From contig JAGWAJ010000015.1 of the NCBI GenBank assembly GCA_021296475.1, forward strand, positions 1 through 41,264: a stretch of 41,264 bases of DNA. The letters run 5' to 3'. How positions within the stretch are numbered: the first letter of the stretch is position 1; each line of letters starts with the position of its first letter. Source of the stretch: Acidobacteriota bacterium (GTDB lineage Bacteria; Acidobacteriota; Vicinamibacteria; Vicinamibacterales; UBA8438). The translations under genes and the position numbers were made by a program. Positions 22,767 through 35,615 of the stretch are shown piece after piece. Under the pieces are notes generated by a model. The model did not search any database and was not told where the DNA came from. It was given only the letters and a program-made list of their open reading frames with translations.

Positions 22767-23114
22767 CTATTCGGCGAATTTCCGGATGACCTCGGTCACC
22801 AGGACCTTGATGGTTTCAGGGCTCAAATTGGCCTTGGTGCCTTCGCCGAAGGCGGGCATCTTGATCTTGCCCTCACCTGATCCCTTGGTAATGGCCTCGA
22901 TCAACTGCTCGTCGGTGTGTCTGGCTTGCCAGTCCTGGTTGGTGAAGTCCGGGGTCTTCATAACGGAAAGACCCTTGCCGTCCGCCTTGTGGCACATGGC
23001 GCAGTTCTTCTTGTAAATCCCCGAGACGTCCGGAGGATCTTCCGCAAATCCCCGGGGGGCGTTCAGCAGCATCATTCCAAGAAAACCGGCTAGTATTCCG
23101 AATCGACAGATCAT
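22767..23114 (-). CDS. Small class I c-type cytochrome
   Basis: A 115-residue periplasmic mono-haem cytochrome c. The ATG at 23112-23114 has AGGAGGT nine bases upstream. Residues 1-24 are a signal peptide (MICRFGILAGFLGMMLLNAP, cleavage near GFA). The haem site is CAMCH at residues 38-42, followed by KADGKG, and the likely axial Met is in KIKMPAFGE (Met86), as in small soluble class I cytochromes. It would carry single electrons between respiratory complexes or to a periplasmic enzyme. It is the first gene of the leftward run with polA, 25 bp apart, so polA may be partly cotranscribed with it although they are unrelated in function. A TATAAT box lies about 105 bases upstream. Confidence 0.93.
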   Translation of the reverse strand: MICRFGILAGFLGMMLLNAPRGFAEDPPDVSGIYKKNCAMCHKADGKGLSVMKTPDFTNQDWQARHTDEQLIEAITKGSGEGKIKMPAFGEGTKANLSPETIKVLVTEVIRKFAE

Positions 23115-23312: not shown

Positions 23313-23515
23313 TGTTTGAAACAAAAGAAAAAAGGAAAAAAGAGTTATCCACGAAGGGCCACTAAGTACACTGGTTCATAAGTATTGCCACGTATTCGCG
23401 GCTGCCACGTCGAGTCGCGCCAGGAGGTTGCATAGGCGATCCATGGTGAACTTCAACAGACTAGACGCAATACGTATTAATACTTATGTGTAGGGGTACT
23501 AAGGCGTTGAGGTTA
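23313..23515 (+). repeat. CACGAA-type dispersed repeat, interrupted copy
   Basis: TTTGAAACAAAAG, an A-rich tract, AGAGTTATCCACGAAGGGCC and ACTAAG at 23313-23366 match the copy at 35530-35615 (TGAAACAA, A-rich tract, AGTGATCCACGAAG ... GGGCCACTAAGGCGTTGG). Here the match stops after ACTAAG and resumes at 23498 with ACTAAGGCGTTG. Confidence 0.7.
23367..23497. mobile_element. 131-bp inverted-repeat element with ACTAAG target duplication
   Basis: The element lies between direct repeats ACTAAG (23361-23366 and 23498-23503). Its ends are inverted: CATAAGTATT, three bases, ACGTATT at 23377-23396, against AATACGTATTAATACTTATG at 23469-23488, and TACAC near the outer edges on both sides. The uninterrupted target (CCACTAAGGCGTTGG) is preserved at about 35600-35614, which proves the boundaries. 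It has no coding capacity: a non-autonomous, MITE-like element or an internally deleted insertion sequence. Confidence 0.65.
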
Positions 23516-23602
23516 ACCGCGACGGGGTGCCAAGGTCGCGAAGGGATGATCGATTTCTGATTGTCTCACTCTCGTATGATCCGCCAGGGCGGCGACCCGG
23601 CT

Positions 23603-23637: not shown

Positions 23638-24369
23638 TCACCGATACTTGCCGGTGAGCTGATTCCACCGAATCAGAAGCAGGCCCAAAACCATCTTGAA
23701 GCCGTCCTGCAGCAGGCGAACCTTGGTTCCTTCGGTGTGGTTCCAGCGTACCGGAATTTCTTGAAGTCTGAGGCCGCGAGTACTGGCCAGGAAAAGGATC
23801 TCCGGATCGAATCCGAAACCGGCGATACGCTGGCGCGCCAGCACGGGGAGCATGGGTTCTCGCCGGAAAGCCTTGAAACCACACTGAGTGTCCCGAAAGG
23901 GCAGGCCGGTCAGGAGTTGTACCAGGCCGTTGAAGAGGCGCCCGGCGTACTCCCGGAAGGTGGACTGGTGAACTCCGACGAGGGAACGGTCCAGAGCCCT
24001 GGAACCGAGAGTGAAATCCCGCTCCCCCCGGACAATGGGGTCCAGCAGCTTGGACATTTCCTCGATGGGTGCGGACAGGTCGGCGTCGCTGATCAGAACC
24101 ACCTGCCCCCCGGCTTCCATGACGCCGTTTCTGACGCTGAATCCCTTGCCCAGGTTTCGGGGGTTGTCCACCAGGCGGAGGTCGGGCCAATCCCGGGCGC
24201 AGGCAGCCACCAGGGCCCCCGTCCGGTCCCGGGAGCCGTCGTTGACCACCAGCACTTCCGCCCGCAGGGGCCGGCTGCGGAGATGGTTGCGTACCGTCTT
24301 CAAGGTTTGCTCAATACGTTCCGCTTCGTTGTAGGCGGGGATGACAATGGAAAGGAAGGGCGTCTCCAT
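23638..24369 (-). CDS. GT2-family glycosyltransferase (dolichyl-phosphate mannose synthase-like)
   Basis: A 243-residue family 2 glycosyltransferase with the GT-A fold. It starts at ATG 24367-24369 (an in-frame GTG three codons upstream is possible). Landmarks are LSIVIPAYNEAERIEQTL, EVLVVNDGSRDRTGALV, DNPRNLGKGFSVRNGVMEA, VVLISDADLSAP (the D-x-D donor-metal motif), DTQCGFKAFRREPMLPVLAR and GFGFDPEILFLA. This arrangement matches the polyprenyl-phosphate mannose or glucose synthases (DPM1-like) rather than polymerising synthases; the last segment (GFKMVLGLLLIRWN) could associate with the membrane. It would transfer a sugar from a nucleotide donor to a polyprenyl phosphate at the inner face of the cytoplasmic membrane. 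It is monocistronic, flanked by repeats on both sides. Confidence 0.92.
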   Translation of the reverse strand: METPFLSIVIPAYNEAERIEQTLKTVRNHLRSRPLRAEVLVVNDGSRDRTGALVAACARDWPDLRLVDNPRNLGKGFSVRNGVMEAGGQVVLISDADLSAPIEEMSKLLDPIVRGERDFTLGSRALDRSLVGVHQSTFREYAGRLFNGLVQLLTGLPFRDTQCGFKAFRREPMLPVLARQRIAGFGFDPEILFLASTRGLRLQEIPVRWNHTEGTKVRLLQDGFKMVLGLLLIRWNQLTGKYR

Positions 24370-24396
24370 GTGATCCACTATGATACACGCCTCCCA

Positions 24397-24443
24397 AAAG
24401 AGTTATCCACGAACGCACACGAAGGGCCACCAAGGGGTTGGCG
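24397..24443 (+). repeat. CACGAA-type dispersed repeat, third copy
   Basis: AAAAGAGTTATCCACGAACG, CACACGAAGGGCCACCAAGG and GGTTGG follow each other at 24397-24443. This is the same order as the copies at 23331 and 35560, with CCACCAAGGGGTTGG in place of CCACTAAGGCGTTGG. Confidence 0.7.
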
Positions 24444-35529: not shown

Positions 35530-35615
35530 GTCTGAAACAACCGAAAAAAGACAAAAGAAAAAGAGTGATCCACGAAGACACACGAAGGACCACGAAGGGC
35601 CACTAAGGCGTTGGA
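35530..35615 (+). repeat. CACGAA-type dispersed repeat, uninterrupted copy
   Basis: TCTGAAACAA, A-rich tract to 35563, GTGATCCACGAAGACACACG, AAGGACCACGAAGGGCCACT, AAGGCGTTGG. This is the intact reference for the copy at 23313, which is interrupted after ACTAAG. Confidence 0.7.

Follow-up and report, generated by a model that had tools for sequence, protein, structure and literature searches.

Transposases of the IS630/Tc1/mariner group are thought of as TA users. The members of the IS630 family that have been studied move by cut and paste (PMC2170065) and duplicate TA upon insertion, with IS630 preferring CTAG as its target (PMC2170065 and references therein). An exception to the TA rule within the IS630-Tc1-mariner group is Sailor (DD82E), for which mostly TATA is reported (PMC8533490). 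A short non-coding element, the 107-bp RUP of Streptococcus pneumoniae, has ends similar to those of IS630-Spn1 and is presumed to be mobilised in trans (PMC2229807, PMC3049150).

Here, a short inverted-repeat element was analysed in a stretch of 41,264 nucleotides from an uncultured Acidobacteriota bacterium (the whole of this stretch is called the window below), where it is flanked by a cytochrome c gene (22767-23114), next to which polA is found on the far side, and by a gene for a family-2 glycosyltransferase (23638-24378), both on the minus strand. We conclude that the element is very probably a miniature that arose by internal deletion from an insertion sequence of the IS630 type (DDE_3 transposase), of a sub-lineage that inserts at CTWAG. 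Its boundaries were set against full-length and short relatives and against a paralogous empty site. An earlier note on this DNA had reported the insertion of an element with inverted ends, and all the sequence features it named are present in the window; the size it gave, 131 bp, has to be corrected, for the element runs from GTAC to GTAC over 134 bp. The junctions read ...CCACGAAGGGCCACTAAG/TACACTGGTTCATAAGTATTGCCACGTATT...AATACGTATTAATACTTATGTGTAGGGGT/ACTAAGGCGTTGAGGTTAACC... (slashes mark the boundaries), that is, TAA/GTAC...GTAC/TAA under a 3-bp rule, with a net gain of 137 bp at the insertion point. If the whole of CTAAG were duplicated, the element would be TAC...GTA, 132 bp.

Table. 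Positions of the element, its parts and its target in the window
Feature	Position	Strand	Remark
Whole element	23366..23499	.	GTACACTGG...GGGGTAC, 134 bp
Left terminal inverted repeat	23366..23396	+	counterpart of the transposase-downstream end in full-length relatives
Right terminal inverted repeat	23469..23499	-	corresponds to the transposase-upstream end, with divergence
Transposase C-terminus remnant, KFTMDRLCNLLARLDVAAA	23397..23453	-	C-terminal profile match
Left TAA target-duplication copy	23363..23365	+	within CTAAG 23362-23366
Right TAA target-duplication copy	23500..23502	+	within CTAAG 23499-23503
Dispersed CACGAA-type repeat, the insertion target	23315..23600 (approximate, element excluded)	+	flank alignment and core matches

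The inverted ends, CATAAGTATTnnnACGTATT, occupy positions 23377-23396 and, as the complement, 23469-23488; a repeat search returned arms of 35 nt (23362-23396 and 23469-23503) with 71% complementarity. Position-weight matrices were made from both ends of about 60 related insertion sequences and applied to the window. The left end scored 38.1 bits (23362, plus strand) as a downstream-type end, and the right end (23503, minus strand) scored 25.4 bits as an upstream-type end versus 20.3 bits as a downstream-type one, while the next best site on both strands of the 41-kb window scored -0.2 bits. These two sites, which face each other, are the only high-scoring ones in 41 kb. Thus, the inverted ends are far beyond chance. 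The left end has zero mismatches to a pattern, AGTACNCNGGTTCATAAGTNNNGCNACGTATT, that is common to insertion sequence copies in five genomes (G129, G057, G038, G085 and G061) of the same order as the source bacterium, and the right end has diverged beyond about 95% of the relatives' ends. When 198 related genomes were searched, the best matches outside the element's own genome were partial, began at CTAAG and covered the left end only, and they proved to be ends of insertion sequences; the interior produced many short, low-scoring matches in relatives.

Adjoining the left end on its inner side, and read from 23453 down to 23397, is the peptide KFTMDRLCNLLARLDVAAA, which outscored every other six-frame segment of the window against a C-terminal profile of related transposases (E=0.025). 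At the equivalent place, related transposases end with kFTRkDLaaLlaKl...AA. The match is short and is convincing mainly by its position and orientation, and a chance origin appears unlikely. A transposase C-terminus directly inside the left end points to an internal-deletion derivative. The description of the element as non-coding is thus correct in that there is no complete gene, but roughly 19 C-terminal codons of the transposase are retained on the minus strand. With no complete gene of its own, the element would need a transposase supplied from outside, in agreement with the earlier note. Traits of a MITE are present (small size, absence of a full gene, inverted ends fitting a full-length element, target duplication), and the transposase gene expected of an IS630 element is absent.

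An insertion sequence with the same ends, which the earlier note had suggested looking for, does exist and is of the IS630 type. In Acidobacteria bacterium Chersky.3_23 (G057; contig JADGOB010000038, locus L132), a frame of 401 aa with a DDE_3 domain (48.5 bits, above the cut-off) lies between the two ends. The NCBIfam model transpos_IS630 was matched by all five members, with 91.3 bits for the G057 frame and 108 bits for another (cut-off 100). Across a collection of 84,980 species of bacteria and archaea, a scan revealed 80 loci with related transposases, distributed over many phyla; their ends begin with CTWAGT, and the two ends have distinguishable consensus sequences. In a phylogenetic tree, a branch supported at 100/100 set the 47 CTWAG transposases apart; the tree sample was collected by similarity to the CTWAG group, and so the tree shows separation rather than full diversity. 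Viral contigs yielded seven transposase relatives, none with an exact end match, and no sequence match was found among solved structures. At loci L093, L096, L109, L126, L130, L136, L139 and L158, the DNA-binding part of the transposase (MPRKSPY...) and the DDE part are in different frames, and in the Dechloromonas copies L111/L113 they are in a single frame; the split frames of many relatives are possibly due to a programmed frameshift. The clade is also represented by a 950-bp remnant with paired ends, L013/L045 (G085:C29), in which the transposase gene is lost or degraded.

Short paired-end elements of the clade were reached through a pattern search of 45 genomes. A 92-bp element (CTWAG flanks counted) is present in four identical copies at different sites of G561 (L225-L228), which suggests recent movement; the other short elements are 124-233 bp long. 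Families of about 125-bp miniatures are found in G562/G057 and in G579 (L234-L243), and G579 contains many further end matches.

The relatives were used to determine what is duplicated at the target. Of 43 distinct full-length copies in which both ends carry CTWAG, 35 had an identical W on the two sides (one-sided binomial p=2e-5), as did 17 of 18 short copies of the clade. The four 92-bp copies of G561, whose interiors are identical, are flanked by CTTAG on both sides in three cases and by CTAAG on both sides in one. Agreement of W was also observed in four short copies in Candidatus Scalindua rubra (G573), in one in G543, and in most short copies of G057 (=G562) and G579. Since identical elements are flanked by a different W that is nevertheless the same on both sides, W must come from the target and be duplicated. 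A plain TA duplication with one end a base shorter was considered and excluded, because W is copied on both sides of identical elements. The duplicated unit is thus either TWA (3 bp) or, as an upper limit, CTWAG (5 bp), two lengths that are inseparable by sequence because the flanking C and G hardly ever vary; of these, 3 bp is the simpler by analogy with the TA of CTAG. Duplication of exactly TA, which marks the IS630 family, is not what is found here, as the copied bases include the W of CTWAG. Ten IS630 elements of more distant relationship served as a control; nine are located in genomes belonging to the same class and the tenth in a viral contig, and all had CTAG at both ends.

The element interrupts a dispersed repeat, the core of which, CACGAAGGNCCACTAAGG, has 12 matches in the genome (up to two mismatches). 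CACGAA/CACTAAGG repeats are seen in the window at 23341-23360, 24403-24442 and 35560-35615 and in G000:C90, C68, C151, C19 and C82; they have an A-rich leader (GAAACAAAAGAAAAAAG) and, in some copies, a longer conserved downstream part. The empty target had been located within the window itself, where an uninterrupted CCACTAAGGCGTTGG is indeed found at about 35600 (35601), but the match of this paralogous copy is short. The copy in G000:C90 near 19152 is a better empty site: it continues to the left and to the right of the insertion point, and the flanks of the element, once joined, align with it (G000:C90:19.1 kb) for about 140 bp across that point. This site is paralogous and not orthologous. 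An orthologous empty site was not found in a locus comparison with three genomes of the same genus, which do not share the neighbouring gene.

Several other explanations of the locus were considered. The sequence ACTAAG is literally present on both sides of the element, at 23361-23366 and again at 23498-23503, and was originally taken for a 6-bp target duplication, which could then be the work of a different transposon family. We consider a true 6-bp duplication highly improbable: dozens of relatives with the same ends repeat CTWAG alone and vary only at W, and the sixth repeated base, the A in front of the right CTAAG, is accounted for by the element end ...GTAC. It is just as hard to believe that the locus is not a transposon and represents a structured RNA, a terminator, or a recombination site such as attC. 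Each strand does fold better than shuffled sequences (z of -2.9 and -3.7), as would any long inverted repeat, but the ends fit a transposon clade and are accompanied by a coding remnant and a target duplication. A search of Rfam gave no match at E<=1, and inspection by eye revealed no attC core sites.

A more serious alternative, itself a variant of the preferred explanation, is that a full-length insertion sequence landed at this site and later lost its middle, in which case there was never any independent movement of the short form. The assembly of the element's own genome (3.17 Mb, with an estimated completeness of 85%) contains no second copy of it, the transposase tail is still recognisable, and other decayed copies of the clade exist, such as the 950-bp remnant in G085; all of this is compatible with decay in place. 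On the other hand, movement of short elements is evident in this clade from the four identical copies in G561 and the families of about 125 bp in G057 and G579, and the size and layout of the element agree with theirs. We regard decay in place as a real possibility, somewhat short of an even chance.

Apart from its copy number, the element resembles a MITE, yet it is single-copy in its own genome, and no short element was revealed by the paired-end pattern in the other genomes of a set of 396 from the phylum. Neither a DDE_3 match nor a match to the related transposase was found in the own assembly; the element is therefore either stranded or served by a transposase encoded in the missing part of the genome. 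The insertion, its ends, the remnant coding tail, the paralogous empty site and the target rule in relatives can be read directly from the sequences, and a plausible history of a mobile miniature may be built upon them. The starting point would have been a full-length ancestor of about 1.25 kb, from which everything was lost except the two ends and the last ~19 transposase codons. The transposase of a related full-length element would have acted in trans on both ends, and the 134-bp remainder would have been pasted into CTAAG of the dispersed repeat by cut and paste, with repair of a staggered cut, probably of 3 bp, duplicating TAA. Because no matching transposase was found, the element is presumably now immobile in its own genome.

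Taken alone, the element is routine genome debris, and its potential significance lies in the clade to which it leads. A literature search, which was incomplete and had ISfinder outside its scope, returned no report of a TWA duplication or of CTWAG in an IS630-type clade. We give an even chance to the proposal that there is an undescribed, phylum-spanning IS630-type clade, with miniatures of its own, that targets the odd-length palindrome CTWAG and duplicates 3 bp, TWA. If this is true, both the stagger and the target have changed within the IS630/Tc1/mariner group relative to the elements that insert at CTAG, and a widespread clade of this kind would be a natural comparison for studying changes in cut stagger and target reading. 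The delimitation of such elements is also corrected, apparent 5- or 6-bp duplications being CTWAG plus chance.

Compared with the known systems, the element is similar to RUP in being short and in having inverted ends that fit an IS630-family element. However, RUP is present in more than 100 copies beside its partner and its targets contain TA, whereas the element of the window is a single copy in CTAAG, with no partner found. Sailor, which is likened to the clade by its target only, also departs from TA within the same large group, but with another duplication. With IS630 and ISY100, the window clade shares a related transposase (DDE_3, transpos_IS630), imperfect inverted ends and a TA-centred target; it differs from them in inserting at CTWAG, in duplicating TWA and in having transposases that group separately (100/100), while the element in the window further differs in having lost the transposase gene.
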